From Actinernus sp. WN-2022 (Eukaryota; Cnidaria; Anthozoa; Actiniaria; Actinernidae): DNA of 64,000 nucleotides. Both the position numbers and the translations under genes were made by a program. The stretch spans positions 21,350,026-21,414,025 of the forward strand of contig JAOWCC010001751.1 in the NCBI GenBank assembly GCA_030867875.1. Direction: 5' to 3'. Below, piece by piece: positions 25,889 through 60,669 of this stretch. Positions within the stretch are counted from its first letter, which is position 1; each line of letters begins with the position of its first letter. The notes under the pieces are model-generated. The model had not been told where the DNA came from and did no database searches. It saw nothing but the letters and a program-made list of their open reading frames with translations.

Positions 25889-25889
25889 A

Positions 25890-27580: not shown

Positions 27581-27859
27581 TTACTGGTGATTTCTTAACT
27601 TTTAGAATGCTAGGTTTGAAGATAGACTGCATGCACCACACAACGTGTCAGGTTGTCCAATAGGGGATTTTGCACGTCAGACTTGGGTTTATGTAATCAA
27701 TGTTTGTGATTCACGGTAGTATATGTACAGTGGCTTTGTTTCAGTGTCAGGCCCACAGGTGGTCTTATTACTTGAATATATTCAGAATGCAGACTGATTT
27801 AGGCCCACAGGTGGCTTTTTGCTGGAAAATATTGCATAATTACCTTTCAAATTATGCAT

Positions 27860-28945
27860 TACCGATTAAACTATGTGGTTTACAGGTACTTATTACTATT
27901 TCTTTCAGATGTAAAAGCTGTCAGTTCAGCCATGGGCTCTTTGGAAAGTTATTCGAAGCTTGTACAGCATCCAAGGACCCACAGTTGATACAATTAGCAG
28001 AAGTTGTACAAAACATTGCCTTACATTCTAAGGTAGATGGAACTGTCAGAAATTATATTCGTTCTTTCAACCGCTGGGTTAGCTTTGCAGAAAGTAAGGA
28101 CTTTACTGTTTTTCCGGCCAAATCTATTGATTTAGCTCTGTTCATAGGTCAATTGGCTTTAGATACCAATTCCGTTTCAGTTTTACAAACAACTTCAGCG
28201 GGTATCACCTGGGTTCATGAGCTAGCAGGTCTTCCCATGCAGTCCTATGCATGCATAACTCATTTATTAAAAGCATTCTAGAAGGAGTTAAAAGGCAGTA
28301 TTCTAAGCCAACTATAAGAAAAGAGCCAATAGCAGTCGATACTCTAACCTCGCTATGTAATAAATATCAACATAGTTCAAACCTCCTAGAGATAAGAGAT
28401 ATTACTATGGCTCTTCTATTGTTCGTAGGCTTTTTGCGTTACAATGAGCTAGCTGCTCTGCGTGTTAAGGATGTTACATTTAAGGATAATTATCTTACAT
28501 TACAAATAGCTAAAAGTAAAGTAGATCAGTATAGAGAAGGTAAAGAATTATTCATTCATCGTTCAGACAAGATCACATGTCCTTATTTAGCACTTCAAAA
28601 ATATTTCAGCCTGGCAGGCTTGTCCAGTAGTAGTGATTCAGCTCTTTTCATTTTTCGCCCTTGTTTAAGTCAGGCAATGGGCACAAGCTGATTTATAAAA
28701 ACAAATGCTTAAGCTATACTAGGGCCAGGCAGGTTATTCTCGGTAGGTTAAAGGAATTTACCGACGTTTAAAAATTAGGCCTTCATTCCTTTAGGGCAGG
28801 CGGGGCTACTTTAGCTGCCAACTCCAATGTCAATGAAAGGTGTTGGAAGAGGCATGGCCGCTGGTCAACAGACTCCGCCAAAGATCGCTATGTTAAGGAC
28901 TTTATTGAGCATAAGCTTGAAGTTACCAAGAGTTTGGGTCTTTAA
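27860..28945 (+). pseudogene. DIRS-like tyrosine recombinase
   Basis: SAM-like N-terminal part: SKVDGTVRNYIRSFNRWVSF and SIDLALFIGQLALDTNSVSV. Catalytic part: LLLFVGFLRYNELAALRVKD carries the first Arg (codon 28437). After a shift between about 28690 and 28770 come LHSFRAGGATLAANSNVNER (HxxR at 28784-28795), WKRHGRWSTDSAKDRYVKDF (HGRW and the nucleophile Tyr at 28889) and a stop at 28943. So all of R, HxxR, H and Y are preserved, but the frames are broken at about 28265 and 28690. The role would be integration of a circular cDNA intermediate. Confidence 0.8.
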
Positions 28946-31214: not shown

Positions 31215-31450
31215 CTTGACTGTTCTGATCCTGCCGGTAACTGAACCTCAAACTAAAACGATGTTTCCTATCACTATTTCCTTTCGGAAATGTCACATTA
31301 ATGGATTTGTCAAATTAATTCCTCTAATCGATAGTGTGTCTGTCGAGGAACTATACGTTTATACAAATAGAGTCCTAACTGACAGGAATCGCTCACTATA
31401 GAATGTATGGTAAGCTACACTTGAACTTCGCCAAATTCTCCATTATAGTT

Positions 31451-31632
31451 CAGATTCTGAGGCCTATGATCTAAAGTGAGGCTGACGGTCTTTGGGGCTA
31501 TGCCATGCTGACGAGTCCTAACAAGGACGAAACAGCTGTACATGGTTGCCACTCTACCGGTAATAAGATGTGAGCATGCGTATTAGACGCTAGCTACGTC
31601 ATAGCGTGTGTTGGGTAGTGCCATGCAACGTG
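31451..31632 (+). mobile_element. Hammerhead-bearing short repeat, copy A (retrozyme-like)
   Basis: About 180 bp that align closely with 47876-48042 from CAGATTCTGAGGCCTAT to GTAGTGCCATGCAACGTG. The block holds one complete hammerhead ribozyme. CCATGC, its stem I strand, recurs 118 nt downstream (31621) without the catalytic core, which may mark the start of a lost next unit. No open frame. The design resembles animal retrozymes, small non-coding retroelements with type I hammerheads that give circular RNAs. Confidence 0.7.
31503..31545 (+). ncRNA. Hammerhead ribozyme, type I, copy A
   Basis: All core elements are in place. Stem I CCATG (31503-31507) pairs with CATGG (31541-31545). Core CTGACGA is at 31508-31514. 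Stem II GTCC/GGAC (31515-31518, 31525-31528) has loop TAACAA. GAAA is at 31529-31532. Helix III is ACAG/CTGT with no loop (31532-31539), and the cleavage triplet GTA ends at 31540. GGC (31497-31499) and GCC (31548-31550) can extend stem I beyond an internal loop. Self-cleavage is inferred from the match to the consensus. Confidence 0.85.
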
Positions 31633-31692
31633 TTTGTATTTAGACTCGTTCTATGAATGATTTGTGGTTTAAAATGGTTAGGGTTTTTTTTT

Positions 31693-31712
31693 GGGGGGGG
31701 GGGGGGGGGGGG
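31693..31712. repeat. Homopolymer G20
   Basis: Twenty consecutive G between the hammerhead repeat and the hairpin array, preceded by a T run. Length is probably unreliable. Confidence 0.9.
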
Positions 31713-31762
31713 ATTAGGTTTTTAGATGGTCCATACATTCTCTAGTGAGCGATTCCTGTCTT

Positions 31763-32265
31763 TAGGAGCACATCTGTCTCGGGACTATCGGCTGATAGTT
31801 GCCCGTGGAAATTTGATGTTCTTAAAACAAAATATAAGCCCGAGAACGTATATGCTAGTTTTAAGAACATCAAATTTCCAAAGGAAACTATCAGCCGATA
31901 GTAGTTCCGAGACAAACACACTATTTGTCGTTATTGTTTATCCGCTCTCAGCGGGCACTATTATACAAATAGACTGTGTCCGTCGAGGAACGATCGGCTG
32001 ATAGTTGCCCGCGGAAATTTGATGTTCTTAAAACAAATATAAGCCCGAGAACGAAGTTCGAGGGCTTGTATGCTAGTTTTAAGAACATCAATTTCCAAGG
32101 GAAACTATCAGCCGATAGGTCCGAGACAGACACAGTCTGTTTGCGTTATTGTTCAACACAAAATTGTCTTTCGTGCTCAGCGGGCACTATTATACAAATA
32201 GACTGTGTCCGTCGAGGAACTATCGGCTGATAGTTGCCCGCGGAAATTTGATGTTCTTAAAACAA
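31763..32265. repeat. Tandem array of hairpin (foldback) units
   Basis: Two full hairpins (about 31763-31920 and 31971-32129) and a third left arm (32202-32265) share CTATCGGCTGATAGTTGCCC then GGAAATTTGATGTTCTTAAA, mirrored by TTTTAAGAACATCAAATTTC and ACTATCAGCCGATAG. Units are preceded by CAGCGGGCACTATTATACAA. The period between units 2 and 3 is 231 bp. A lone GTGTGTCTGTCGAGGAACTA near 31335 suggests more copies once lay to the left. Confidence 0.8.
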
Positions 32266-32529
32266 ATAAGGGAGAACATTTGCTCTTGTTAGTGTCCAGG
32301 CCAGTGCGGACAGCTTATTTCCGTATTCCGCATGCGTAATGTAGTCGTTGAAAGAAATAAAGCAGATGACTGTCAACACAGAGGTCAAACGTGAATCCAA
32401 AACCCCTATATCGACGAGCTTTCGTCGAATTCGTCACCAATAATGAGGAAAAAGGAAAAAAGGATAATAAACTTTACGATGAGGGAGCGAGTAAAAATAC
32501 TTAGAAGTGGTACCATTCGGTGATGAAAC

Positions 32530-32759
32530 TATATATAGCCCGCTCTTATTATAAGTATTCGCATTGAAAGACCTTAGTGTTCCTTCAGACAGTTCAGAGT
32601 TTCCCTGACAAACCGGTCAGTCTTATTTTGCGGGATTATATCGAGAAGTTAAGAGAAAAATATATTCTGAGACGATCGAAAGCGGGACGATCCAGGGTTT
32701 GTGTTGAACAGGATATGTTCGAGACAGGACTCACAACGACAGTAAAATATTTTACATGA
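32530..32759 (+). other. TATA-like motif before a short open frame; uncertain
   Basis: CTATATATAGC at about 32530 is followed by an open frame to 32759 containing FPDKPVSLILRDYIEKLREK and ending at a stop. There is no ATG at its start and no recognised domain. Promoter-like context is the only reason to list it. Confidence 0.2.
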
Positions 32760-33094
32760 GAAAGAAACCAAGACTGTCTATCAGCAGTTAAAAAAATAAC
32801 GTAAATATAAGTCCTAAATTCGACTCATAACACCAGTGTTTGCTTATCAATGTTTGCTTAATATTATTAGTGTCATGAAATGTGTCCGTGCTACAGCCTA
32901 GGACAAGGGAATTACTCTAATCGAAATCTCAGACATCCATACTTCTAAACAAAGATAGAATAGTTTAAATTAGACTGCCAGGCCGGTATCAAGTATTTTG
33001 AAAACCGTTCCCGGCTGCCGGGTATCTAGCCATGCACAGTGTAAAATAAACTTGTGCTGAATCACTCCAATATTTATAGTAAAACTGTACTTAC

Positions 33095-33225
33095 TTGTCA
33101 ATTTCGTGCATAAAAGATGGACATTCAGCGCGTTGTGAGCCAGCATTTCCAGTATGTTGCTCCCCGAGCGCTTCGACGACAGGAAGAACCAGTATTGCAA
33201 GCAGATGCAAGATTTTCGTTGTCAT
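33095..33225 (-). CDS. First coding exon of a predicted secreted protein
   Basis: From ATG (33225-33223) the minus strand encodes MTTKILHLLAILVLPVVEAL then GEQHTGNAGSQRAECPSFMH and EID. It has a short basic N-region, a hydrophobic core LHLLAILVLPVV and a likely signal-peptidase site after EALG. The exon ends in phase 2 at AA|GTAAGT (donor at 33094). A TATA box lies 112-119 bp upstream. Reading through the donor would stop at once, so splicing is expected. I could not identify the next exon; candidates below 33090 hit stops. A secreted, possibly Cys-containing small protein is likely; its function is unknown. Confidence 0.6.
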
Positions 33226-33336
33226 TTTGACCGCGCTTATTCGTTACGAATGTGGGCAAACTATACATCAAAACGTGGGAAATTCAATAGACTAATTAAA
33301 TTCGGTTGTAGGTTTTTGACTGGTTCTTTTCCCAGC

Positions 33337-33344
33337 CTTTTATA
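33337..33344 (-). promoter_or_regulatory. TATA box for the secreted-protein exon
   Basis: On the minus strand, GGGCTATAAAAGGCTGGG is a strong TATA motif. Transcription would start near 33310, leaving a leader of about 85 nt before the ATG. Confidence 0.6.
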
Positions 33345-33657
33345 GCCCAGACTTCCCTGGCATATGCCCAGAAATAGAGGAACGCCTTGTATATTTTGAT
33401 TCAACCGGTCGAAAACAATTGCAAATTGACCGCGGAAAATAAGCGACTATGGGGTTTAAACTATTAAAACTACAGAGAAAAGACATTATTGTTTTGTATT
33501 CCGTTCATAGGTTTTTTAGTTTTTTATTTACGAGGCATAACATTAACAAATTGCAAGAAAATTGCGTAATTTTGGCGAACAGTTGAGTGAACTCCCGGAG
33601 GGGGCGTGAGCGTGACTCACGTCTAGTGACCTTTTGTTAAACGGAAGTTTGATATGT

Positions 33658-33900
33658 AATAGGAGATATTGTAGTTGAGTCTACTAATAGCAGTTTCAGC
33701 GGTATTGACCCAAACGCCTCACTTCAATGTAATGAAGCGCTATTCAAACTGTGTATCTAAATTAGTCGTGCTTGTTTAGGAGGGTGTTGGTGTCGTGTAA
33801 GAATGATGGTTTCAATGGCGCTTCATTACATTGAAGTGAGGCGTTCGGGTCAATACCGCTGAAACTGCTATTCGTAGACTCAACTACAATATCTCCTATT
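33658..33900. repeat. Foldback (long inverted repeat)
   Basis: AATAGGAGATATTGTAGTTG at the left is mirrored by CAACTACAATATCTCCTATT at the right. The arms are about 89 bp (33658-33746 and 33812-33900) with a few mismatches and a ~65-nt loop. Confidence 0.85.
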
Positions 33901-34912
33901 GTTTTAGCATAACCACGGTACGGTTCGTTCCAACTATGAATAGAGAAAAAACTGTGAAACCGTTGGAAAATAAGCAATGTTCTAGCTGATTTTTACGCAC
34001 GCTCGCCATTCTAAATTGCCGTCTATCGATCTTTAGTACTGTATAAACAAGAGAACAAATCCTGCATTCCGACTGGCTACCCTAGTATAGGTCTATTTGT
34101 GATAGCCCACGGTCAGAGAAAAACCGCTTAAGTCTTTATCTGTTCTTTATTGACTGACAGAATTCCCTGAAATTGCATAAAGAGCCTAGCCTGAATTTCA
34201 GCCGTCTCCTCTGGGTTCGTTCCTCCCGAGAGAGACGTCTGAATCGAATAGCCGATAATGCCGTCCAGTGACGTCACTACCAGAAAACCTGGTAGTGATT
34301 TTTGATTGGTTCATATTCTATAATTTCACATAATTATCATAATTATCAGCCGAGAAGACTACAGGATTCACTTTGGACTCGCGATTGTTGACTGGTTGAG
34401 TTTCAGTGGAGTGATTGTCTTTGGCAAAGACCTTGAATTCGTAAGGAAAACATCTGGAAATTAAATGGATTGAAAGTGTCCTGCACAATAACCGGCCGAC
34501 TAACCTGTAAACATGTACATTTTATCGCGTCGCGTCCGCGGGGTTGTTGACAATCGATTATTTGTTCGCACTCGCAGTGGTAAAGAATGTCGCTACTCGC
34601 ATCATTTACATAGGTAATATCTCGTAGCTGCGTCGATTCGAACGGCAGATCGCGAGACACGTACAAAGATCAACGGAAAGACAAAGATCAACTGTACTTT
34701 GCCTCCAAATATAATATAACGATTTGTTGCTTCGGAAAGGCTTTCACAATATAAGAGGGCAGTATCGTCGTGTACCGTTTAACCAACTGCGTCATAAAAT
34801 TACCTTTGTTACCCACGTACGTTCGCTATGAATAATTTGAGACTCAGAAATTTTATACGAACATCGGAATCGACACTTAGAAATTTTAGAACGATTATAT
34901 GTTATCCTCACT
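33901..34912. other. No recognisable gene
   Basis: No domain or transposon recognised. A small hairpin TCACTACCAGAAAACCTGGT lies at about 34275. Confidence 0.35.
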
Positions 34913-34914
34913 AT

Positions 34915-35018
34915 AAAAAAAATTACCGCCTGAACCGGGATTCGAATCCGGGCCGGTTAAGAATCAATGCAATGGCTTACCCACCACCAACCCAAACCCT
35001 AACCATTAGACCACGAGA
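34915..35018 (-). tRNA. tRNA-like sequence (SINE head or tRNA pseudogene) with T8 terminator
   Basis: The minus strand reads GTGGTCTAATGGTTAGGG (A box, very like tRNA-Glu), then about 45 nt, then CCCGGATTCGAATCCCGG (B box/T arm), a short 3' part and eight T (34915-34922 as A on +), a Pol III terminator. It is about 20 nt longer than a normal tRNA between D and T arms and the anticodon arm is not clear. It is therefore either a tRNA-derived SINE head or a decayed or intron-containing tRNA. Confidence 0.45.
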
Positions 35019-35279
35019 GAATTCGCTGATTGGAGTCGTTTCTTTTACCAGATTTATATCAACTCCATTAGCATGTTCATAAAATATTCTATTATAGTAT
35101 AATATATACTATAATAGCGGTACGACAACCCACTGAGCGCGCGAGGTGTGATTCCCCACGGATCTCAACGGTACACGACGATACTACCCATAAGAGGCAC
35201 TTGAGAAGCAAATGGGATGGAGATATATAATATAGGTAAGGCTTTTATTTTGGTCGGCATAATCTCAAATAAATATTTC

Positions 35280-36758
35280 TCACGAACTCTTTAAACTACC
35301 GCCGTGACAGTTTTATCATATTTGGAGAATTTGTAATCGGTGAACCATTTAGAAAGAACGAATATTTCTCAAGAGTAGATTTACGACATTGTTTTTGGAA
35401 AATAACAGCCTTAGTTTTCTTCATATTGATAGATAAAAACCAATTTTGACAATATGTTTGGAGTGTATTAATGGTCTTTTGGAGGCCTGCTGCACTACTG
35501 GATATCAGAACTAAATCGTCTGCGTAAAATAAACTGTTTAGATAAGTTCCATTTGGCAGAATAACTGGATCAGTGTCATTTGTGCTTTGTAAAATATGAG
35601 GCAAATCATTCAAATATAGATTAAAAAGTAGAGGAGACAAGACGCATCCCTGTCGCACTCCTCTGGTATACTTAAAATAGTCAGTTCTTTGATTTTGTAC
35701 TTTAATGCTGCATTCCGTTTTTGAGTACATATCTTTAATAAGATTATAAAATTGACCTCCGATTTTACAAGACGTTCTATTTTCGCAATGAAAAAATATC
35801 TCGATTTCCGTAAACTCCCTATCAACATATGTAACAAATTATTTGACACACTATTCAGTCCTATATTATTGTACAATTCAGAAGTTTGGGGGGCTTATGG
35901 TGACAAAATCAATTTCAATAAATGGGAAACAGATCCTATTGAAAGAATACATATACCCAATTTTATAAACACTACCTTGGGATAAATAGAAGAGCACCAA
36001 ACGTTGCCTCCCGTAACGAGTCTGGAAGGCTTTCCTTAAAATCTCTAATTTATCGAAACATGTTAAAATGCTGGATACACCTTGAACAGCTCCCAGAAAA
36101 TAGTATTGCAAAACAATGTCTTCAGATTTCGAAAGACTTGGCATCCTCCAACAAAAATAGTTTCATATCTTCGATAAATGAGCTTGTACATTTATTTGAG
36201 TCAGGGAATAAAAAAACCATACAGGATATTGACATAAATAAACCAAACAAATGGTTATCTGCTATGAAACAAAATATAGATAATCAATCACAGTTACACC
36301 AATTACATCTCATAAATTCAAATAGAAAACTAGTATTTTATTCAATGTTCAAACATGATACAAAGGCTTCTCCATACATAGAGCTGATAAAAAATTCAGA
36401 TCACCGAAGAATGACTGCAAAACTTAGATCGGGAAATCATAATTTAAGGATAGAAACAGGCAGACACTCTTGTCCCAAAATACCCGAAGCTTCAAGGATA
36501 TGTGAAATGTGTGTCACAAATGAAGTAGAAAACGAAATACATTTCACATTTCATTGCAGCTTATATAATAACATTAGAAAAGTATTCTTCGACGACATTT
36601 GTAATAAATACAAACATTTTACAAACTTAAATATCAAAGACAAAACTTTATTTCTATTTAATAACATAGACCCATTTGTATGTAAGAAATTGGCTCACTA
36701 TATTTTTGAAGTTTCACTTACCTGGAGGTTTGAGGTATTTCATGATACTTCTAATTGA
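35280..36758 (+). mobile_element. LINE with twin-priming inversion (RT part inverted)
   Basis: Minus strand 35760-35296: FYNLIKDMYSKTECSIK, then GVRQGCVLSPLLFNLYLNDL (RT motif B) and FYADDLVLIS (motif C). Plus strand 35760-36758: RRSIFAMKKYLDFRKLPINI, LFDTLFSPILLYNSEVWGAY, a frameshift near 35957, NRRAPNVASRNES and a C-terminal CX2C...H...C motif (CEMCVTNEVENEIHFTFHC). In an intact element the plus-strand part directly follows the minus-strand part. The join near 35760, with the RT part inverted and its 3' end outward, is exactly what twin priming gives. The endonuclease is missing. Confidence 0.8.
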
Positions 36759-36879
36759 AAGACCTTGTTGAAATTTCCGGGAAATTCAACAGAAATTGCG
36801 CTCGAACTAGCCAGGGAAAACATTTCGAACGGGGTGCCATATTGTTTATTCGTCCTCATACCCAGGCCTTCACGCCAGT

Positions 36880-37290
36880 TATTTCTCATCTTCGCGCACG
36901 TGGCGATAACACTCTGTTTGGTACAGTCGCAAAGACTTCAGATAGTCGCCCTGGATATTGTATTTATTCAGCGGTGTTGCGAACAGACAGCAAAGCTATG
37001 TCCACGTCATCAGCAGTGAGGTGGATGTGTTTGGCAGATTTGACAGCCGCTTCAGCCCAACCGTTAGACTGATACCAGTATATAGGGAGAGTACGTGATA
37101 TGATGAAACTTGTACTATTAGCGAACGTCTTGAACAGGTCAGAGGTGAATTAGGCCCCATTGTCGGTTATGAGTGTGTGGGAAGCTGATCAATTTCATAA
37201 AAGTCACTGTAGTGGTCCACTGTCACCAAATAGGCCAGTCCGTTGAGCTCAAATAGGTCCTGAGAGACCAGCTGCTAGGGTAGAGTGGGC
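36880..37290 (-). mobile_element. Ty3/gypsy integrase remnant
   Basis: On the minus strand: DLFELNGLAYLVTVDHYSDF then YEIDQL (first catalytic Asp region), a deletion and frame change, ITDNGA, a stop, FTSDLFKTFANST (second Asp) and YQSNGWAEAAVKSAKHIHLT (Glu). This is the DDE core of a gypsy-type integrase with an internal deletion of about 35 codons and several stops. No LTRs recognised nearby. Confidence 0.7.
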
Positions 37291-37630
37291 TACTGGGTAT
37301 TGAACAGAGATGTTCCGTGACAAAGGCTGATTAACAATGTCTTTTTATTCACTTTTTTGGGAGCAAACATTTTACTGTGCATAGACTACTTCGTCCTCAT
37401 TCAAGCCTATTTTAGACAATGAACGGCAATGTTCGCGAGCACGCGTTTCACTAACTACACAGATGAAGCTTTAACCGACTGTTTATATCGTTTGTTCCTT
37501 AACATGGTCCGAAATGAAGAATCTGTAATCAACGTAGGCTAAATATTTTTCACAGCCAGAAGAAAATTACCCCTGCGAATCATAAACAAGCCATTGGCTG
37601 TGTCGTTCACTTACGCTCGGTTCATACGAT
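37291..37630. other. No recognisable gene
   Basis: Nothing recognised between the integrase remnant and the 20-bp tandem repeat. Confidence 0.35.
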
Positions 37631-37688
37631 GGGCACGGCATTCCTAACTTGGGCACGGCATTCCTAATTTGGGCACGGCACTCTAAAC
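37631..37688. repeat. 20-bp tandem repeat, about 3 units
   Basis: GGGCACGGCATTCCTAACTT is repeated at 37631, 37651 and (diverged) 37671. Confidence 0.85.
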
Positions 37689-37817
37689 AGGGTGATGAAG
37701 ACAACCTTTTCACAGGGTCTCAGCTGAACCCCTAGATTTTCAGGCATGCGTAACCACCCCGGAACATTTCCATTTACACGACAAAAATAAGGGTTGCCGT
37801 AGCGAATTGTTTTGTTA

Positions 37818-37970
37818 CGTATAGCCCACTTTGACGATGTTGCGCATGCATAAGAGAACAATAGATGTGGCCCGCCAAATAGTCTATGTAGCCCGGCAGT
37901 CTCTTGTTATTCAGATTTTATGTGCATTGTTCTAGTTGCGTGCGCAACATCGTCAAAGTGGGTTATACCT
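37818..37970. repeat. Inverted repeat with ~40-bp arms
   Basis: TAGCCCACTTTGACGATGTT with GCGCATGCATAAGAGAACAA at the left is mirrored by TTGTTCTAGTTGCGTGCGCA and ACATCGTCAAAGTGGGTTA at the right, with a few mismatches. Confidence 0.75.
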
Positions 37971-38109
37971 ATGGGCTCCTGTTGTCGCGTAAACCGACCG
38001 ATAAACCTTGTAATTCACCCTCTTCACGCTGCGGCCCTGTTGGCTAGAAACCATATATAGTTTTCCCATGTCGAGCACGTGGGAAACAAAGATTTTATTT
38101 TCCTGGGAT

Positions 38110-38516
38110 TACCGTAAATGCTCTATTAAGCGAGAGGCAACCTAGATGGACGTGATGGATGAGGAGGACAGTGATGTTGACATCGAGAATTAACACTGAG
38201 AACTGACACTAAGAACTAACACTGAGAACTGACACTAAGAACTAACACTGAGAACTGACACTGTTCTGACGCGAATTTTACCGTACAGTGGCCGGTCATG
38301 GAACAGTGCAGTGAAGCGTTGTTTTATAAGCGAATAAAATGCCACAGTTGTAAGTTGTTTTGTAATTTATAGCGTTTTCGTTTTTGGGCGAGTGTATCTG
38401 ATAGAGAAATTGAATAAGTGCCTCTCTCTATTAAGCGCCTCGTCTCTAATAAGCCTCGTCTCTAAGGCCCCAGAATTAAATAAGCGCCCCAGGCACTTAA
38501 TAGAGCATTTACGGTA
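38110..38516. mobile_element. MITE with perfect 21-bp TIRs
   Basis: TACCGTAAATGCTCTATTAA at the left is exactly mirrored at 38496-38516. There is no coding. The interior holds a short tandem array and an array-like CTCTAATAAGCCTCGTCTCT section. Non-autonomous DNA element. Confidence 0.75.
38190..38262. repeat. Short tandem repeat inside the MITE
   Basis: The alternating units ACACTGAGAACTG and ACACTAAGAACTA repeat about three times, a roughly 26-bp period. Confidence 0.8.
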
Positions 38517-38560
38517 AACATGGCCGCCAAGTGAAAAGAGTGAATAGACCGTTTCACATT

Positions 38561-38798
38561 CAAGAATTACCGCTGGATGCGATGACTACAGACGCATTTA
38601 CTCAACGTTAGTCTCATGCTGATATTTCAAATACTCACAATTACCAGCGAGAAGGTGCAGAAGATCAAACTACAGCAATACATAGAGTTGTGAATAACAC
38701 ATCTTACCGCTGGTATTTAATTTATAAATATTAACATCAGAATGAGACTAGTGGTGAGTAAGTGCGTCTGTAGCCATCGCATCCAGCGGTAATTCTTG
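38561..38798. mobile_element. Foldback/MITE, family A (partner at 22104-22323)
   Basis: CAAGAATTACCGCTGGATGC at the left and its mirror at 38779-38798 bound imperfect arms of about 95 bp. The sequence of arms and loop matches the copy at 22.1 kb (for example ACCAGCGAGAAGGTG), with more divergence between the arms here. Confidence 0.8.
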
Positions 38799-39026
38799 AA
38801 TGCGACGCTGGACTATTGTGACTGCAGAACATTAAACTCTTGCATTCGCTAACATATTTCCGATATGGTTAGACTTGCTGTGTTTTATAGGGCGGTGTTC
38901 TTGAAGTTAACTCTAAAATCTGAGCTATAAACAACGGCAGAGAAGACGCCTGACGTAACGAAACAATCACTTCCCTTTGTCAAAGTACCTTAATAATGTT
39001 TAACATATTAAAGTTGAGGAACACAT

Positions 39027-39319
39027 TCAGTTGCAGAAGTTTCCCTTGCAACAGGTGGCTCTGCAGACGATGGTGTTATTCATCACATCGTATCCGTCTC
39101 GGCAACTCTTCACGTCATTAATGTTGCAGGTCTTGGCACAGCCCTTCAAGAATAGATAGCTATTTCGTCTTCCAGACCTCAGACTGCCGGCAGCTGTTAT
39201 GACCATTTTAACTTTGATGCAGTCGAATGTCCTATGTGGGCAACGTGTGGGTGTTCTTGACGTGTGACAACGTTTCCAGGACCTGCTGCTGAAACACTCG
39301 TGGCACTTGAGACATACTC
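39027..39319 (-). CDS. Ly6/uPAR-type (three-finger) domain protein, terminal exon
   Basis: Begins after an acceptor (AATGTAG|GAGTATG on the minus strand) and encodes CLKCHECFSSRSWKRC, then CPHRTFDCIKVKM, GCAKTCN and ends CRATCCKGNFCN and a stop at 39027. The CxxC start, spaced cysteines and terminal CCxxxxCN are the signature of the LU domain, usually in secreted or GPI-anchored surface proteins. Just upstream (39330-39400) a second GECHECFSSR with a GTTCTG donor-like site looks like a partial duplication of this exon's start. The signal-peptide exon was not found and no GPI tail follows the last Cys, so a secreted form or a partial gene is possible. Confidence 0.55.
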
Positions 39320-39419
39320 CTACATTGGGTAATAAAAAAGCGATATAAAGATACCAGAACCTACTGCTGAAGCATTCGTGGCATTCACCCGAAGACTGGC
39401 CGCCCACTCTGACGAAATG

Positions 39420-40923
39420 TATTCAGAAATCATAAAATACGAGGGTATTTCCTATCGATCATTATCAAAATACGCTGCCTAATATAAAACCGCCCTCATG
39501 AAAACGCGCGCGCGTGTAGCAGATGCATTTGCAGCCCTGTACCTCATTGGCTGTTGCTTCATCATCCTATCCATTTAGACCAATCAGATTTTGGCGCTGA
39601 CGCGGTGAGCCATTCAGGTACAAATTCCGCCAACGAGTCGCCAAATGAGTAATTTTGAAAAGTTTGAACCACTCATGGAACCTCACCCAAAGCAATACGC
39701 AAAAAAAAGAAAAGATATCGGTTAAAATGGCACACTGAAGATGATCTTTTTCCAGACTCATTTGGCCTTGTGTTTTGATCATATACTAATAAAATTAATT
39801 TCTGGAGGGCATTTTTTTTTAGCATAAAAAGTACATAAAAAGGTTAGACTGGACTGTCGCATGCTGAACCGGCTCGTGCTATACTGACGTGGTTTATATC
39901 AGTATCGGCACTGCATGACTGATATTTTGAGAAAGTTCTCAAATAGACCAGTTTGAGGTTAATTCCGACATTTTGAAAGAGGTGTAAACATAGCGCGAAA
40001 ATCCGATGCAAATAATATCCGTAAAATCGAATTTCTGAATATTCATTGTCTTCAAACTTAACTGAGAACCAGATAAAAGATTAACTCATCAAAATTTGAG
40101 GGCTGTAGCTTCGTCTTTTCACTCTTTAGCTCGTGGATATTGCGAAAGCAATCCACGAGTTATTAGTATGGGAGAAATCATGTCACTCGCTCACTCACTC
40201 CGTAAGGTGTTAACAATCGGTTGGAATACATATTTTGGCACTCGCACATCCGTCTAACACATGTAGGAGATGTATATGATGTTAAGAGAGTTTTCATCAC
40301 CAACTAAGACAAACACAAACCCTTTATATTCCAAGTTACAATCCCAAATAAAGCGTGAAACAAATCGGTAGATTTTTTAACATGTCAAATGGAACACATA
40401 AAACTCAGTAAAACTTTGATTTGATTTATTATCTTAATATTTTTTAGATATGTTTGCGTTCTAACAAAGCTATCGTGACGTCAGAGCCTTTGTTAATTTA
40501 TTTACCTCTTGACCTCTTCCAACGCGAATTATCAAAATGGAGGAAGGAATATTCAGTCTTGTGTTTTGTACTGTGAGTAGGGCAAAACACACGATAAACA
40601 GCGACGATAAACAAGCGAACTTGCAATTGCGTGGTGGGATAACTATTACGTTTTGCGACGTTTTGATCGAAATGTTGCTGCATACGTATGAGGTTTGTAG
40701 GAGGATGTTGGGATGTAGATTTTTTATAAAAATAGCGCAATAAAATTAATGAAACTTATATGGTGTCTTAATCGTTTCCCTGGCTGTGTCTGTACGCAAT
40801 TTCAGTGAATTAGAGTGAGGTTTAACCTCTTTACCGAGACTTTTCTCTGTCGGCAGTCGGTGACTCGTTCCAGCCAATCAGAATGTTTTTACCTCCGGTT
40901 ATAAACCATTGGTTATGTACCAT
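39420..40923. other. No firm gene
   Basis: Mostly AT-rich and unrecognised. At 40537 AAAATGGAGGAAGGAATA starts a short frame (MEEGIFSLVFCT) running into a GTGAGT donor-like site, but without other support. Confidence 0.3.
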
Positions 40924-41680
40924 TAATTAACATACGTATCCCGGCATGCATTAAGGGAGTTGAATAAAATCCCATGCAGAGCACATGGTTGTCAGTATTC
41001 GGAGCAAGCTAAAAATAAACAGAATATTACATTGGGGCCGAGCGATTTCTTCGAGCCCAATTGAAGTCACTCCAATACCAGCATTCGAACCACATGGAGA
41101 ACAAAGTTCTGTAGCATAGAGGTGGGAAAAGTATATCAAAAGCTTTGAATTATTTGCCTATGCCGCCGGATGCACAAACGCGAAACAGAAACGCCAATTG
41201 CTCTTACACACCGCCGGATCCGATGTACAAGGTATCTTCTTTACTCTCACTGAAACTTGAAGCTAGATCAGTATTTTGCACCAAGAAAGAACACCTCGTA
41301 CAATCGGCATATCTTTCGACAAGAGAAACAAAAGGAAGGCGAGTGCAAAACCAAAGCCGGTCTTGATCCGCAGAAACGTTTGGTTCCCTGGCGTTGATGC
41401 AGCAGCGAGGAACCGTCAAGCGGTGCATACAGTTCAGTTCCAGTCCAGTTCATTTTATTCACACTTATTTCTATTTTATAAAAGTAAATATCACTATATA
41501 GCAGATAATATAAAATAGAAAAGATGGAGTTAGGTATAAGAGTATATTTTTAGTTAAGAGTGCGTAGTGGCCAAAGTAGCAAAAACTTTCGAGTCAGGCC
41601 ACTACCGGTTTCATACCCTGTCAAGCCAACACAGCTACATGTCTGACCTCCTCCGTGGTCCCTGACTCAACCTTAGCATC

Positions 41681-42110
41681 GATTTCTGTGGTCCCCTTCC
41701 ATCAAGCCAGTATTTACGTGTTATCATTGTTGAGTACTCCCGTTTTCCAGTCGTAGAAGTTGTCCGCAGCACCGCAGCTGAGACAGTCATCCCAGTAGTA
41801 TAGACAAGGTCTTCTGTACGTTTGGCTTCCCCGAGCTCCTCAAGTCTGACAATGGTCCACCAGGCATGGAAACGTTTCCTCAAAGCCTGCTGCGTGAAAC
41901 ACCGAAGGATTACCCACTGTGGCCCAAAGCCAACGCCCAGGCCGAAAGCTTCAACAAACCTCTGATGAAAGCCATCAAGGCAGCCAAGATCTAAGGTCAA
42001 AACTGGATATTTGCCTTGCATCAATTTGTGCGTGCCTACAGGTGACACCGCACACTACTACGACCTTCACGCCACGTCGTCTGTTATTTGGACAAGAAAC
42101 ACGAACCTAG
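41681..42110 (+). pseudogene. Ty3/gypsy integrase core remnant
   Basis: Reads DFCGPLPSSQYLRVIIVEYS then RFPVVEVVRSTAAETVIPVV, a stop, VFCTFGFPELLKSDNGPPG, WPKANAQAESFNKPLMKAIK, a stop, and HQFVRAYR. The DDE triad is kept (Asp codons at 41681 and 41848, Glu at 41944), but stops after PVV, KAAKI and RAYR kill it. The role in an intact element is strand transfer of cDNA into the host genome. Confidence 0.75.
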
Positions 42111-42442
42111 TTACCTGAGTCAACCACCTATGACCAACAGGACGACATTCCAACCACTGCACAACAAGAAGAGGAAGAGAAACCGGTTGCTCAACAGCAA
42201 CTGATCCCTGAAAGACCTAAGCGAGTGACACGGCGACCCCAGAGACTGATAGAAGAACTGTGAACATTCATACTCAAAGTTAGCCTCAAAGCACTGTTCA
42301 GTTTTTGTTCAACATTGCCGTTCAGACGTTTGTTCCAGGAGTAAGATATATGGACATTTTAGCAATCAAGGCAACATTGTGTTATAGTAGTCTAGCTTTT
42401 CAGCTAATGGTTGTCTCACACGTCCCTCTCCACCTTAATTAA

Positions 42443-42648
42443 CCGGCGGGTGTAAAGTACAGGTCAGGTTACAGGTCAGGTCACGTCACTTCTTGTTTAC
42501 CTGTGAACCCTAGCTCTAGGTGAGTGAGAACCCGTCGTTTACCTGTGAACTCTCCGATGGTTAGGGTTATGTTTGTGGTTAGGGTTAGGTTTTGTCTTAG
42601 AATTAACAACTTGACCTGTGACCTGTGACTTGTACTTTACACCCGCCG
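42443..42648. mobile_element. MITE inserted in the 3' LTR
   Basis: CGGCGGGTGTAAAGTACAGG at the left is mirrored by a TGTACTTTACACCCGCCG right end. ACAGGTCAGGT is repeated inside the left end and mirrored as ACCTGTGACCTGTGAC. TTAATTAA flanks both sides, while the 5' LTR at 40924 has a single ATTAATTAACATACG, an empty site. The interior carries TTAGGGTTATG...GGTTAGGGTTAGG, telomere-like by chance or origin. Confidence 0.75.
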
Positions 42649-42759
42649 ATTAATTAACATACGCATCCCGGCATGCATTAAAGGGAGTTGAGTAAAGTCC
42701 CAGAGCACATGGTTGTTAGTCTCGGAGCAAGCGAGAAATAAACAGAATATTACACCGAT

Positions 42760-43572
42760 ATTCATATTTGGGTATCATTCTTTCTCATGGTAGTCATATT
42801 TTGCAAGCATTTCTTCCAAGCGCTCGAGGGTTTGCAGATAATCTTAGCTACAATTGTAGTTTCCTGTCAGCGAGTTAACGGAATCGAATCGGATTCCCAG
42901 ATGCTGTACTCATAGCAATAGCAAACATATTGATAGATCTAATGGATAGTGCCCAGGGCCTGTGTATCCTTCCACGAGTTCACCATTGGTACCTATGTCC
43001 ATACATATGTCTGTAACAAAAAGTTGAGAGTCTGCGGGAAAATTTACAGACAAATGTATGGAAAACTGAAAATACTGCACGCTTCCCAGCTCAGCTACAT
43101 CCCTCAAATTTTCATCAGTTAATCTAGCCTGCTTGCAGGCAGTAGAGGACGTAGAGGGTGTTATCACAGAACACGGATATCGAAGCGGCCGCCATATTGG
43201 CCGACTGACAAATGGAGGGGCTGGGGGAAGAAGAAGAATCTTTTACCTGGTATCTTAAGTTTGCAGCCGGACAGTGAATATTTCAGAAATTCGATATTAC
43301 GGAAGTTATTTGGCATCGGATTCCCATACACATACTGTATTTCGCGCCATGTTTGCACCCCTTTCAAAGTGTCGGAATTAGTTAACCTCAATATTCGCCC
43401 AAAGGCTCAGAACTTTCAAAATATCACTCAATGCCTATAAATCACGCATAGCACTCACGTTCATGCGATTTCCTCTACAAAAATATCAAATATAGGCATT
43501 TATATGTCCTTTTGTGGTCTTCATGAACTGTATCGCGGACTCGTTTGATCCGATTAAGTTTTTTGCTATTTT
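42760..43572. other. No firm gene
   Basis: An 85-codon open frame on the minus strand (42910-43167, no ATG) and a short ATGGCGGCCGCTTCGATAT start (MAAASISVFCDN...) around 43190 look slightly coding-like, but no domain or splice structure supports them. Confidence 0.25.
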
Positions 43573-45005
43573 AGCGGCATATCCAAGTTGAATTGTTTAC
43601 TATATGCGGACGACCTAGTAATTCTATCTGATTCTGCATCTGGCATGCAAAACTGTTTGAACAAACTCCACTCTTATACCAAGAAATGGAGACTAAGAGT
43701 TAACTTGAAAAAGTCTAAGATTCTGGTTTTTGGGACACCGGCCCAAAGGCGTTTATGTATAACTTCTAAGTGGTATCTTAACAATGAACAGTTGGTCTGC
43801 GTTGAGGAATATACGTATTTAGGGATTTCTTTTCATTGTGCTGGTGGTTTCAAACGGGCCCAAACTACTTTGTATAATAAGGCATTGAGGGCTTATCCGG
43901 CAGTCTATTCAGAAATTTTTCAAATGTAGAAAATATGTCAGTTAAGTTACTGTTGAAACTGTTCTCTTCACTTGTAGTGCCAGTGTTGCAGCTATATGGA
44001 TGTGAGGTGTGGGGTGTATATTTGTTGGGACGAACCTGCTCTAACTTAGATATGTTCCGGCAGAAACTGTTTAAGGTAGTTAATAATTTAGAGAGACTTC
44101 ATTTGAAGTTTTGCAAACGAATTCTGGGCGTACACTCTAAAACAACCAATTTAGCAGTCTATGCGGAATTAGGTAGAGTTCCAATGATGGTTCAAGTCGC
44201 TTCTCTCGTAGTGAAGTATTGGTTAAGAATTATAAACTCGGAATACAATAGTACTTTAGTTGGAAAAGCTGCGGAAGTATGTATAAAGTCGAAATTTCAG
44301 GGTGCAGTTTTTACAAACCATATTTTAGAACTATGCAATATCAAACCGCTCACTGAGCTTTCAGTTTCTCTCAAACAAATAGGTTTAATTGCCAAATATG
44401 TAAAGGTAAAAATGTACGATTATTTTGCCGAGAAATGGAAGGACCAGGTTCATCAGAGTGATCTGCAGAGCCACATTTATGGCGGGAAGTTACGTACTTT
44501 TCGTCAAGTTAAACCGAAAGTAGGTTTTGAAAAATATCTTTCATCTATTACGAACTTCAAACACCATCAGGCAGTAACTAAACTACGGGTGTCTGCACAT
44601 AAGTTACCTGTTGAGTCTGGCCGATACGGAAATATTCCATATGAGTCACGGAAGTGTACTCTATGCGACTTGGGAGTGATTGGAGACGAATATCATTACC
44701 TTATGATTTGTTCGAATCCCAGTTTTATTAATGTTAGAAACGAATTTATGACTGAGTTATTAAGTATTAATTCTTCTTTCTCGAGTTTTAATAAGAGATA
44801 ATTATCTTTATATATAATGTCTATGAAGGATGATACAATTGTAAAAGTTGTTGGTAAATATTGTTACAGTTTGCTTACAGTATTTAATAATAGTAATTCG
44901 AGATAGTTATGAATGTTATTTCATTGTATTTCGACTTATATTTAGTTTTATAAGAATTCCTATGTACCATTTCTGGCGTTTATATGGAATAAAGTTTATT
45001 ATCCG
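43573..45005 (+). mobile_element. 5'-truncated LINE with RT motif C and C-terminal CCHC motif
   Basis: Starts abruptly in RT: GISKLNCLLYADDLVILSDS (motif C), NLKKSKILVFG, EEYTYLGISFHCAGGFKRAQ. A stop and shift at 43928 are followed by a 288-residue frame with LLKLFSSLVVPVLQLYGCEV, FCKRILGVHSKTTNLAVYAE, RVSAHKLPVESGRYG and CTLCDLGVIGDEYHYLMIC (CX2C...H...C). This is the same layout as the 35.3-36.8 kb element but a different family. About 200 bp of 3' UTR ends near GGAATAAAGTTTATTA. One stop apart, it is fairly young. Confidence 0.8.
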
Positions 45006-45502
45006 CTTCGTAAAAAGGTAAACAAAAAGAAACCAATTTAAGGAATACAATATTTCCACCGTTTCTTTCTCTTTGGAAGAGTTTGGAACCCTTTAATTTG
45101 GTATTCGAAAATTACTTTAGGCCGTGTTTCGTAATGAATTTCAAGTATGCGGGTCACCGACCGAAACGAGTGGTTTTTGAACGTTTCATTTGAGACTCAG
45201 TTTTAGCATTTACTTATCAGTAGACGGGCGAACGAAGATGATGAAATTTGTACACACATTTCCTTCTTCCAGAACAACTTTTTGCAAAACAAATATTCAA
45301 AAAGTCGCTCGCAAAACATGCCTTGCCATTCGCATTTCAGTCAACCTCCTATGTAAGAACAGTTGTCGCTAAAAAAACGTAATGATTGTTCCCATATTTA
45401 AGATTAATTTTGTTCCTAACCAAACTGTAAATATAAAGTGCAGTTTTATAGGCAGTAGGCCATTGCCAAATCTAGAGTTAGTTTCAGTGTCGCCACATTT
45501 AC
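45006..45502. other. No recognisable gene
   Basis: AT-rich; nothing recognised. Confidence 0.35.
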
Positions 45503-46505
45503 AACGCTACTTACCGACAGAAATACAAGCACAGAGAATGATCAAGAGAGTTAACTTTTCCATCCTTAATCCCACACGACTGACTGTTGAGCTGGAGCAG
45601 TCGTTATCGTGATTAGTAGATCGAGAAGAACAAGCAAGTGATCTCATGAAACTCTATCGTCTTAATTGATCGCAAATGTTTTTGGGGGTAACACGATTCT
45701 TCAATTACAGCATCATTCTGTTTCAGCGGCTAGGGAAACGGTATCGCTGGCTGAAAAAGGGTGGACATACAGAATTACATGCATATACCTAATGTACCAG
45801 CCTTTGGCCTTGTTGAAGTCCCAAAATTGTGATACTGAACTTTGACTATATAATCTAAATGGAGAAAATACTGCGATCAAGGCACACCGAATTTCGATTA
45901 GTGCTTGGAACAATATTTTAGTCTAACGTCATTACAGCCTTTATGATCTATCAACACTAGTTTTACGACATTTTACTTCAACGTTTTCGACTTCGAATCT
46001 TAGTTTGTTTGAAAGGTAAGGATAATATATTTTACTAATTCACTAGCGTGGTCATGTTTCAACAGCCTCATCGTAAGCCTCATCAATTATCATTTAATTG
46101 CGGTCAATTATAATTATATTGCTGTGGCTCTGTGAAATTGTAAGTACTTGAACAAAATCCGTGCAAATATTTAAGGGCTCATTCTGGTGGCCTGCAACTA
46201 AACTGGGCTGACTTAAATGCGAGACACACTATAAACAACGCTACCTATACACGCTACTTACCGACAGCAAGACAAACACAGAGAATGATACAGAAAGTTA
46301 ACTTTTTCATCCTTAATCCCGGATGATTGTCTATCACGAACTGCAGTAGTATGTTGGGGCTCGTTGTTCAGTTATGCGTTTAGTCGAGTCCCGACTGTCC
46401 AACATAACCTGACATAATTCCTTGAAACTCGATAGTCGAGTCCCAACTGTCCAACATAACCTGACATAATTCCTTGAAACTCGATAGTCTTAATTAACAG
46501 CAAAT
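45503..46505. repeat. Diverged direct duplication, 750 bp apart
   Basis: GCTACTTACCGACAG followed by ACACAGAGAATGAT, GTTAACTTTT and CATCCTTAATCCC occurs at 45503-45575 and 46251-46325. TTGAAACTC(G)ATAGTCTTAA-like text also recurs (45650 and 46475). It suggests an old segmental duplication of at least 250 bp. Confidence 0.65.
46382..46485. repeat. 52-bp tandem duplication
   Basis: AGTCGAGTCCCGACTGTCCA continuing to TTGAAACTCGAT is present twice in tandem with a single substitution. Confidence 0.9.
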
Positions 46506-46669
46506 GCGGGTCTTTATAAGCGAGTTCTGATTTACAGTAAATACGCACAGAAGGTCAATCATTATGGTTTTAAAGGAGGTTAAGCTGATCAAAATATCTG
46601 CCAGGAAACATCGGCTTTAAGTTTATCATCGACTTCAAGCCGTTTCGGGAAGTACAGGTTTTTTCTTCA

Positions 46670-46673
<4 letters not shown>

Positions 46674-46707
<34 letters not shown>

Positions 46708-47531
46708 TTTTGACAGGAAAGCTCCACTCACAATTTGTGATTTTCAGGGAGGTCCTGTATTAAAAATATATATTTCGCTAATATATGGAAAACAGAAAAG
46801 ATAAATGGTTGAAATAAAATAGAAATAGAACAAGGATTATTATGAAATTAAGTTATGTGCCAGTAAGATTTAAAAATTGATAATGTAGTTGATTGTATAA
46901 CTTCAGAGTCTAAAGAGTTCCAGTCTAATAGTGCATGGTAGGTAAACTTCTGTTGTCCCCAATTCCTACGTGCGAATGGCAAATGTAGATTGTGCTGACG
47001 GCGTGTATTATATGTATGAAAGTCGTGATTCTTCTTTAATTTAAAGTTGAAGTCCACCATGCTATTTAAGCATTTGAAGATAGTAATACAGCGATGATAG
47101 CGCCGTCGAAGGTATAGTGGTTTCCAGTTTAATAGTTCGAGTACTTGAGATGCAGAAGAGCTTGAGGGAAAGTCGAGCATTAGTCGAGCAGCATTATTCT
47201 GAAGAACTTGAAGGTGATCCATGAGGACGGTATTATTCTTATCTCCCCAGACGATATCGGCATAGTCAAGTAAGGGAAGGACAAGAGATTTATAGAGAGT
47301 TAGCCGCGCATGCAAGGGCAGCAAATGCTTTACCCGGCGGATGATGCCAAGACGTTGATTGACTTTATTACTGACTCTATCCACGTGTTCTGACCAACTC
47401 ATGTTCTGACTGACTGTCACTCCTAAATATTTAAAAGGCCACGACTTTGTTTTACAGTTTGATCCCAACTGATTTCCAACCAATTGCTGGGTTACACGTG
47501 ACGTCATCGCCGCCATCATGGTTGACATCAA
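46674..47531 (-). mobile_element. 5'-truncated CR1/Jockey-type LINE with (ATT)n tail
   Basis: The minus strand encodes WPFKYLGVTVSQNMSWSEHV, NQRLGIIRRVKHLLPLHARL, LVLPLLDYADIVWGDKNNTV, LQNNAARLMLDF and HTYNTRRQHNLHLPFARRNW then GQQKFTYHALLDWNSL, the region from just after RT motif C to the C-terminus. The 3' UTR ends in an (ATT)n tail (AATAAT run at 46674-46707 on +). It is uninterrupted for 227 residues but lacks the RT catalytic part. Confidence 0.8.
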
Positions 47532-47875
47532 CGAAAGATTCCTCGTTCGATCAACCCTGAAACCAAAAGATTTCTTTGTTTCGCTTCAGGCTTCTGGGAA
47601 ATCCGTAACCTAATACGTCCAGGCGAGGGTAAATCTGCTTGCTCGCATCTTTGCGATCACTGAGTTTGTAGTACTGAAGCCTGTCCGTAGGATCTTCTCC
47701 AGTTTCATAGAGTATCAATTTTAGCCTACTTCGAGGATAACCTTGCGCTATAGCGATGTGGATCTCTCCGAAGAGGATCTGGTAGTGCAAAATGGTTGTT
47801 CACATCTCCAGCTCCCACACATGTTAGCGTGGTGGCTGGGGTTTAAAGCAGCTTTGAGCTCGCCCTTAGAGTAAC

Positions 47876-48042
47876 CAGATTATGAGGCCTATAATCTTCT
47901 TGGGGGCTATGTCATGCTGATGAGTCCTAACAAGGACGAAACAGCTGTACATGGTTGCCACTCTACGGGTAATAAGATGTGAGCAGGCGTATTAGACGCT
48001 AATTACGTCATAGCGTGTGTTGGGTAGTGCCATGCAACGTGC
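47876..48042 (+). mobile_element. Hammerhead-bearing short repeat, copy B (retrozyme-like)
   Basis: Aligns with 31451-31632 over its length (CAGATTATGAGGCCTAT ... GGGTAGTGCCATGCAACGTG) with about a dozen differences and an ~11-bp deletion before the ribozyme. Flanks beyond these limits differ, so the two are separate insertions. CATGC again recurs 118 nt after the stem I strand. Confidence 0.7.
47912..47954 (+). ncRNA. Hammerhead ribozyme, type I, copy B
   Basis: Stem I TCATG (47912-47916) pairs with CATGG (47950-47954), outer pair U-G. Core CTGATGA is at 47917-47923. Stem II GTCC/GGAC has loop TAACAA (47924-47937). GAAA is at 47938-47941. Helix III is ACAG/CTGT with no loop (47941-47948), and GTA ends at 47949 as the cleavage triplet. 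It differs from copy A in the free core position (T for C) and the outer stem I pair (U-G for C-G), both compatible with activity. Confidence 0.87.
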
Positions 48043-50164: not shown

Positions 50165-50490
50165 CTTATTCCTATCGAAAAAATATTTTCTAAGAGAGAC
50201 TCTATACGTAAGGCCAGAGAAGCGTTTTTAATCGCACAGGCGAAAACACTCGAACCTCATGACCTTAACATCCGGGAAGAGTCATACTAGATATCTGTTT
50301 TCACCTTCTTAACATTTTTTCACGATCTATCATATTGTAATCTGTTTTATGACAGCTCAGTATCAAGTTCAAAAATACACGCCAATGTAAATTTTCTTCA
50401 TTGTACCTGAAGAAGGCTGGTGTGGCCAGCCGAAATATTGTACCACTAAATTCAAAATTCTACGTTGTATCGGTCTTTGCTTCTTCATAG
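50165..50490 (+). mobile_element. Penelope-like element 3' end
   Basis: Encodes LIPIEKIFSKRDSIRKAREA then FLIAQAKTLEPHDLNIREES and Y-stop, aligning with the last 42 residues of the element at 59.4-60.5 kb. The 3' UTR follows, with a hammerhead-like motif and TTCTACGTTGTATCGGT near the end, which also aligns with 60640 onward. Confidence 0.8.
50403..50443 (+). ncRNA. Hammerhead-like ribozyme in Penelope 3' UTR (copy 1)
   Basis: Stem I GTAC (50403-50406) pairs with GTAC (50440-50443). Core CTGAAGA is at 50407-50413. An extra A is followed by stem II GGCTGG/CCAGCC (50415-50420, 50426-50431) with loop TGTGG. GAAA is at 50432-50435, then TATT, giving a 2-bp AU/AU helix III and a UU cleavage site. 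Stems I and II covary with the copy at 60.6 kb. Confidence 0.6.
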
Positions 50491-51345
50491 TTATTTTTTA
50501 TTTGATAGCCGATTAGATCACTAGTTTGATCCAACGTACACCAGCAGGATTGTCGTTCACGGTTGCTTGCTTGAACAATTCGTCAATTAGTTCGAAGCTT
50601 GAATGCTTTTGCTAGATTTCATTAGCATTACATATTCGTTGCTTTTTATCCGACGTTTTAGGCGATTATTGCGCATGCGCAGTGTAGCCTATTTTATACT
50701 GTAAGCGGGAACTGGCTGCCGCACGGTTGACAACAACCACATTCACAACATAGAGCGGATTTCAATTGAGTGTCGGAAGTGTTTTGGTTTTGCGTTTACT
50801 AAGCTCTCCTATTGGCTGAGAAAGTAAACCAACCAATCAGAATCCAAACGGAAAAACCAAAAGCAAATTGGTTTTGGTTTTGCTTTGGTTTGTCATTGGC
50901 TCACAGGGAAGCCATTTATGAATTACTTGTGATTACTCGCTCCTATGATTGGCTGGCTGTGGGTAATTTGCGTTTGGTTTTACTACACTCAACTGAAAAC
51001 CGCTCTATTACTCACGGGATAGACTTAAACTCGTTGAATACAGACACAGGATTCTTAAAAAAAAGTTTTTTACATTATATTGCCACAGGAGCGTTTTCGC
51101 AAGTTGGGATATTTCAGGAGCCCATAATGGCCTCCTGGTTATGTTTAGAACGGTTTCCCGCTATTCTTGGGTTGCAATCTTTCCTGTGTTGGTTGGTATA
51201 ACAAAAGTAGGTAATGAGGCCTCTTTTGTTCCGCCACTAGTGCAATCCACCAATTGGTTGAAAAATAATCTAAAAATAGCCCAACTTATGAAAACACCGT
51301 GACACCTATATAGGAGATATGGCGCTCCTGGCTATGGGCTCAGTC
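50491..51345. other. No recognisable gene
   Basis: A 129-codon open frame (50812-51201) has no domain. It contains short iterations of TTGGTTTTGCTTTGGTTT and looks non-coding. Confidence 0.35.
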
Positions 51346-59372: not shown

Positions 59373-59375
59373 TAT

Positions 59376-60473: not shown

Positions 60474-60576
60474 TCAGTCACACCGTTTATAGTTATCTTT
60501 CGTTATCATATTATGTTTTTTACGTCATTTCCGTTTTACCATTATATATTGTCAAGTCACATTGTAAAAGCTCCTA

Positions 60577-60619: not shown

Positions 60620-60669
60620 ACATTAAATCCGTATAATTCTACGTCGTATTGGTTATTCTTCATTCTAGT

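Follow-up and report, generated by a model that had tools for sequence, protein, structure and literature searches.

Introduction

The metazoan non-LTR (long terminal repeat) retrozymes are described, in the available sections of PMC7229834, as sequences of 170–400 nt carrying a type I hammerhead ribozyme, with a GC content below 50% and tandem units of 150–450 bp (approximately 350–390 bp in mussels); no LTR, primer-binding site (PBS) or polypurine tract (PPT) is described there, and the elements co-exist with Penelope-like elements (PLEs). Plant LTR retrozymes are likewise non-autonomous and hammerhead-bearing, with a proposed circular RNA intermediate, and, as described in part in PMC7761336, carry type III hammerheads in LTRs of ~350 bp, 4-bp target-site duplications (TSDs), a PBS and a PPT. 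In PLEs, as far as the accessible portions of the reports on Poseidon of Anolis (PMC11167929) and Penelope of Adineta (PMC3846280) go, a hammerhead (in PAc) lies upstream of an internal reverse transcriptase (RT) start, a tail is optional, and the elements can form partial tandems, have inverted copies at their borders and are flanked by TSDs of 8–10 bp. Here, we analysed a 64-kb stretch of contig JAOWCC010001751.1 of Actinernus sp. WN-2022 (hereafter, the window), in which 2 repeats, copies A and B, each contain a hammerhead motif. Judged by sequence, the repeats are confirmed as a new family of the published metazoan non-LTR retrozyme kind, and the anatomy of their genomic inserts, which resembles that of PLEs, makes it probable that PLE-type machinery moves them.

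Results and discussion

A 349-nt unit with a type I hammerhead

Mapping of family members from the 1.39-Gb assembly revealed a repeat unit of 349 nt, which elsewhere in the genome is arranged in head-to-tail tandem (L009, L015/L016, L028, L034, and others). The repeat of ~170 bp recognised in the initial annotation falls short of this unit and does not include an inverted 51-nt piece of copy B (Table 1). Unit positions (u) are counted from u1, the base following ...GCAACGTGTTTGG, which places the beginning of the hammerhead at about u214 and the predicted cut after u252; window coordinates are positions within the 64-kb stretch. Copies A and B share a core of 144 nt (95% identical; blastn E ~3e-62), which was found at 41 places in the genome with 98–100% identity; all 40 of the scored candidates matched, these being the best of 1749 first-look candidates and hence a sample of the best-kept copies. 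The unit has a GC content of 49.3%, its longest ATG-initiated frame on the circle is 53 aa, and the unit maps of the genomic loci show no LTR arrangement, nor are the PBS, PPT and 4-bp TSDs of the plant elements seen. Together with the type I hammerhead, the tandem units within the 170–400-nt range and TSDs that exceed 4 bp where present (approximately 11 bp), these properties agree with the description of the metazoan retrozymes, the comparison with which is by description rather than by sequence. The initial annotation had proposed a mobile, non-coding, retrozyme-like family, a view borne out by the 41 genomic places, the tandem units, the short frames and the TSDs recovered in a controlled test (see below). 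In its circular form the unit is predicted to be highly structured (68% of bases paired; −121.1 kcal/mol; z −3.5; a fold this stable was reached by 0 of 60 shuffles), whereas the linear 144-nt cores fold less strikingly (z −1.0 for copy A and −2.5 for copy B). No exact match to a 24-base piece was present among viral contigs, a collection that may omit records of the source genome. At L028:1093-1150 there is a relic of the 3′ part of the retrozyme, diverged to 88%, which suggests that older members of the family exist.

Both hammerheads lie where they had originally been placed, and the proposed cut sites, 31540/31541 in copy A (between GUA and CAUGG) and 47949/47950 in copy B, agree with the sequence. 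In the Rfam scan of the window (64 kb against 4227 families), the copy A motif exceeded the gathering threshold of RF00163 Hammerhead_1 (34 bits), whereas that of copy B remained below it despite retaining every core element. Stem III, also part of the initial annotation, is present but consists of the self-complementary 8-mer ACAGCUGU without a proper loop. Because published type I hammerheads with a weak stem III are on record (PMC6155905, in its available part), the ribozyme is likely to act as a dimer paired through this palindrome. In stem I, the C at 31503 is replaced by U at 47912, converting a C-G pair to U-G with pairing kept, as read by eye. The copies examined are mostly 96–100% alike. 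As the initial annotation had reported, a second occurrence of the stem I strand is found 118 nt further on; in copy A it reads GCCATGC (31620), and it sits directly before the point at which nearly all mapped copies end.

The sole compensated hammerhead change seen belongs to a different element, at L024:2719-2884, in which stem II is GUUC/GAAC instead of GUCC/GGAC and the GUC cut lies at 2790. This second hammerhead-type element is placed between 37-bp perfect inverted repeats, ends 94 nt after the cut and is not listed by Rfam at the gathering threshold; perhaps it represents another retrozyme family inserted head-to-head.

Anatomy of the inserts

From 40 examined loci, 8 were removed as representing the same locus or having the same flanks (L014, L016, L019, L021, L023, L031, L032, and L039), leaving 32 non-redundant inserts. 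Their 3′ ends are fixed, with 38 of the 41 outward-facing ends located at u344–356, that is, 92–104 nt past the ribozyme cut, although the query required u205–348, so that 3′ ends before u348, but not later ones, were selected against in single-ended copies. The adjoining DNA is AT-rich (78% AT in the first 12 bases, 63% at greater distance; n = 38, Wilcoxon p 1.2e-5), and at the 27 ends with exact TTTGG the match to the template continues into the flank for a mean of 3.3 nt, versus 0.48 nt expected. Neither a poly(A) nor a simple-repeat tail was seen at the insert ends. Seven of the 32 inserts are head-to-head, with the 3′ region at both borders in opposite orientation (L002, L003, L006, L008, L029, L033, and L036), and L020, L026 and window copy B contain an inverted piece that ends elsewhere. 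More than 1 unit in one orientation is present in 15 inserts, and 11 hold at least 2 full hammerheads in one orientation; thus, the single hammerhead per copy noted for the window is not a general property of the family.

The TSD test was passed by 9 of the 32 inserts, as opposed to 1.7% of 992 mismatched flank pairs, and the TSDs found are mostly ~11 bp long. Among the head-to-head inserts, 4 have exact TSDs (11, 11, 11, and 10 bp), 2 have 11-bp TSDs with one mismatch, and L033 has none; the TSD of L008, which is located in a repetitive flank, is correspondingly weaker. The L029 retrozyme is nested within the reading frame of a PLE, for which the PLE of the window, 97% alike, provides the unoccupied site: when the window PLE is compared with L031, two matching blocks are obtained, and at the position of the L029 insert these have an overlap of exactly 11 nt.

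AT-rich flanks, TSDs, 5′ truncation and a fixed 3′ end would also be left behind by a long interspersed nuclear element (LINE) moving the retrozyme in the manner of a short interspersed nuclear element (SINE); in that case, reverse transcription would be target-primed and begin at a fixed 3′ tail, and the inverted pieces would stem from twin priming; window copy B, L020 and L026 indeed resemble ordinary 5′ inversions. SINEs are, like the retrozyme, short and non-coding and use a borrowed enzyme. Unlike SINEs, however, the retrozyme has neither a full Pol III A box nor a B box on either strand of the unit, where only loose A-box words occur, and its ends lack a poly(A)-type or simple-repeat tail. 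Furthermore, the same internal 3′ region is found at both borders of the 7 head-to-head inserts, an arrangement that, judged by the general behaviour of LINEs, is not favoured by twin priming inside the RNA, and the TSDs of these inserts, where found, cluster near 11 bp. We consider mobilisation by a LINE unlikely.

5′ ends and the RNA template

With ribozyme-cut linear RNA as the usual template, a cluster of 5′ ends at u253 would be expected. None of the 24 5′ ends and head-to-head junctions that were unconstrained by the query (a count that includes both arms of L008 and L033) comes within 5 nt of the cut; the closest is at u246. A second genome search with u253–349 alone as the query yielded 41 places (best 40 of 1476 candidates scored), of which 13 previously unseen places were fetched and one, L079, interrupted by other sequence, was omitted. 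The 5′ ends of the remaining 12 run from u16 to u239, with none at u253, and L074 is an additional head-to-head insert. The absence of 5′ ends at the cut indicates that the usual template was circular or uncut RNA; cDNA synthesis routinely proceeds through the ligated or uncut junction, and a circle and an uncut multimer are equally compatible with the ends observed.

Penelope-like elements in the window and in the genome

The window also carries a 5′-truncated PLE, flanked by an exact TSD, which represents the candidate helper class (Table 1). Among 1980 candidates, 584 relatives reach E<=1e-3; RVT_1 and GIY-YIG domains are both present in several of the best, and the few named relatives among the 120 listed are cnidarian. 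Directly after its frame is a hammerhead-like motif devoid of stem III, with a presumed cut at 60614/60615. Rfam returned no hammerhead match to this motif at E<=10; minimal hammerhead forms have been described in PLEs (PMC6155905 and PMC7761336, available sections). A search with the PLE 3′ end identified 42 genomic places (best 40 of 608 candidates scored). The set of PLE ends was drawn from 30 loci plus L031/L041 and excludes the window relic as well as rows that are partial because they reach the edge of a locus; L056 and L046 have the same flank. Measured from the presumed cut, 17 of the 34 ends are at +55 to +66, 16 at +137 to +155 and one at +109, for a query that ended at +53 and thereby selected against nearer ends.

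Five PLE inserts are head-to-head (L068, L070, L051/L052, L064/L065, and L041/L031), and their two flanks have in common exact runs of 11, 12, 13, 12, and 11 bp, compared with 11 bp for the window PLE and at most 7 bp for mismatched pairs; the true TSDs of the head-to-head PLEs may be somewhat shorter, given that some bases are readable as element. In all 5, one border is of the near kind (+55 to +66) and the other of the far kind (+137 to +155), as if each target strand used a different start, although 5 of 5 inserts with opposite end kinds, for which the chance is about 1 in 32 under equal use, are too few for a claim.

Table 1. Retrozyme and Penelope-like features of the window
Feature	Position	Strand	Basis
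Copy A, 5′-truncated unit (u163–u348)	31451-31636	+	blastn of unit, 99%
Copy A, type I hammerhead	31502-31546	+	RF00163, 35.3 bits, above gathering; E 4.1e-5, computed over 64 kb and 4227 families
Copy A, cut to fixed 3′ end, with GCCATGC (31620); ends at putative RT start	31541-31636	+	sequence and mapped ends
Copy B, inverted 5′ piece, 51 nt (u31–81, antisense)	47745-47795	-	blastn of unit, 98%
Copy B, sense part (u82–u344)	47796-48041	+	88% to unit
Copy B, type I hammerhead	47911-47955	+	RF00163, 31.3 bits, below gathering; E 9.1e-6, computed over 701 bases only
Diverged 3′-end relic of a related PLE; includes a hammerhead-like motif of its own (CTGAAGA, 50407)	50165-50496	+	
PLE open frame, RT end and GIY-YIG endonuclease	59358-60473	+	Pfam PF01541, 29.1 bits
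5′-truncated PLE insert, candidate helper class	59360-60667	+	exact 11-bp TSD, 59349-59359 / 60668-60678
PLE hammerhead-like motif without stem III (AGCAC-CUGAUGA-stem II-GAAA-UAUU-GUGCU)	60577-60619	+	read from sequence

Proposed mobilisation by PLE-type machinery

In the retrozyme and the PLE family alike, a fixed internal RT start follows a hammerhead or hammerhead-like motif, head-to-head inserts occur and the TSDs are of similar length, and on account of this shared insert anatomy we infer that PLE-type machinery mobilises the retrozyme. That metazoan retrozymes are moved by PLEs has been proposed before: the available text of PMC7229834 calls them a strong candidate, based on shared hammerheads, tandem copies and co-existence, and retrozymes have been proposed to derive from PLEs by reduction (PMC11722881, in part), with no conserved motif revealing the helper reported for the metazoan repeats in the accessible portion of PMC7761336. 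What is added here is the anatomy, namely the mapped RT start, the head-to-head inserts and the ~11-bp TSDs, of which our literature search, with poor coverage of subscription papers, found no earlier report.

In the scheme that we favour, transcription would proceed through the copies, best through head-to-tail dimers, and hammerhead cleavage, probably of molecules paired via the palindromic ACAGCUGU stem III, would release a 349-nt RNA, the ends of which a host ligase would join into a highly self-paired circle. A Penelope-like RT/GIY-YIG protein would then take up the circle or an uncut multimer, nick AT-rich DNA on both strands ~11 bp apart and begin reverse transcription at a fixed internal position, ~100 nt past the ribozyme cut; priming of one strand would give single-ended inserts, often of more than 1 turn, and priming of both strands would give head-to-head inserts. 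Published PLE biochemistry predicts such an anatomy. For the purified PLE PAc, cutting and extension of both strands of the target and an internal start are reported, with unprocessed RNA as the main substrate in vitro (PMC11167929), and rotifer Penelope has inverted pseudo-LTRs (pLTRs) with TSDs of 8–10 bp, the pLTRs having mobilised a foreign gene in trans (PMC3846280), according to the sections available. A metazoan-type non-LTR retrozyme family moved by PLE-type machinery along the full scheme is, in our assessment, probable. With less assurance, we lean towards the view that animal retrozymes stand to PLEs as SINEs stand to LINEs, the RNA circle imitating the hammerhead-plus-start module of a PLE and being copied by dual-strand priming; a PLE enzyme acting on both nicked strands would thereby turn one small circle into head-to-head inserts of rolling cDNA.

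Several observations weigh against this reading. It is drawn from genome sequence, and the anatomy was compared between the retrozyme and one PLE family. Furthermore, the queries required u205–348 or u253–349, and the searches took near-identical copies, so that the counts describe young, well-kept inserts. Of the outward 3′ ends, 3 of 41 are elsewhere, at u339 in L036, u41 (one turn on) in L026 and u142 in L020, all of them second ends of their inserts; the TSD test was failed by 23 of the 32 inserts; and the 3.3-nt match at the junctions contrasts with the report, in the accessible text on PAc, of no homology to the cut DNA. When 8 further loci were scanned with Rfam at the gathering threshold, L003 and L007 alone passed, and most copies seem to score just under it. 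Finally, the end distances differ (+92 to +104 in the retrozyme versus +55 to +66 and +137 to +155 in the PLE), and the 2 elements show no significant likeness around the RT start (p 0.81 for site 1 and 0.16 for site 2) or in the post-cut regions (p 0.46), nor are their 3′ parts alike. Thus, the PLE family examined need not be the helper. The word TTTATAA occurs both near the end of the retrozyme and near PLE site 2, but overall these sites do not resemble each other significantly.

Given that PLEs carry hammerhead-like motifs near the RT start, are often truncated and are present in the same genome, the repeat might alternatively be a solo pLTR of a PLE, with the hammerhead a PLE part. We regard this as quite improbable: 349-nt units are joined head to tail without coding sequence between them (L009, L015/L016, L028, and L034), the unit has no likeness to the one PLE family compared, and its hammerhead is recognised by Rfam, unlike the motif of the window PLE. 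The retrozyme also differs from PLEs in coding for neither RT nor endonuclease and from the window PLE in the presence of a stem III. A satellite-like repeat spread at the DNA level by recombination, extrachromosomal circles or Helitron-like carriers, with a passive hammerhead, would account for the short tandem units and has parallels in published satellite and Helentron cases (as far as these are described), but the sharp 3′ and ragged 5′ ends, TSDs, exact empty site and head-to-head inserts are marks of retrotransposition and render it the least credible explanation, with hardly any weight.

Other features of the window

Copy A is embedded in a foldback cluster with many inverted repeats (31300-32270) and lies between the arms of a 30-bp inverted repeat (31381-31410 / 31731-31760, 97%). 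Long inverted repeats at 33658-33900 and 38554-38805 (92 nt with 96% identity and 73 nt with 89%, respectively) are likely foldback or MITE-type (miniature inverted-repeat transposable element) elements. The region 25205-28691 contains zinc knuckle and RVT_1 frames, followed by a frame at 27697 that has no Pfam match but looks recombinase-like; the region may be a retrotransposon of the DIRS type. At 25005-25344 there is a tandem repeat with a 74-bp period.

Implications

The copies carry a PLE-like mark, which bears on the question of which enzyme moves animal retrozymes, and the absence of 5′ ends at the ribozyme cut bears on the form of RNA that may be used as the template.

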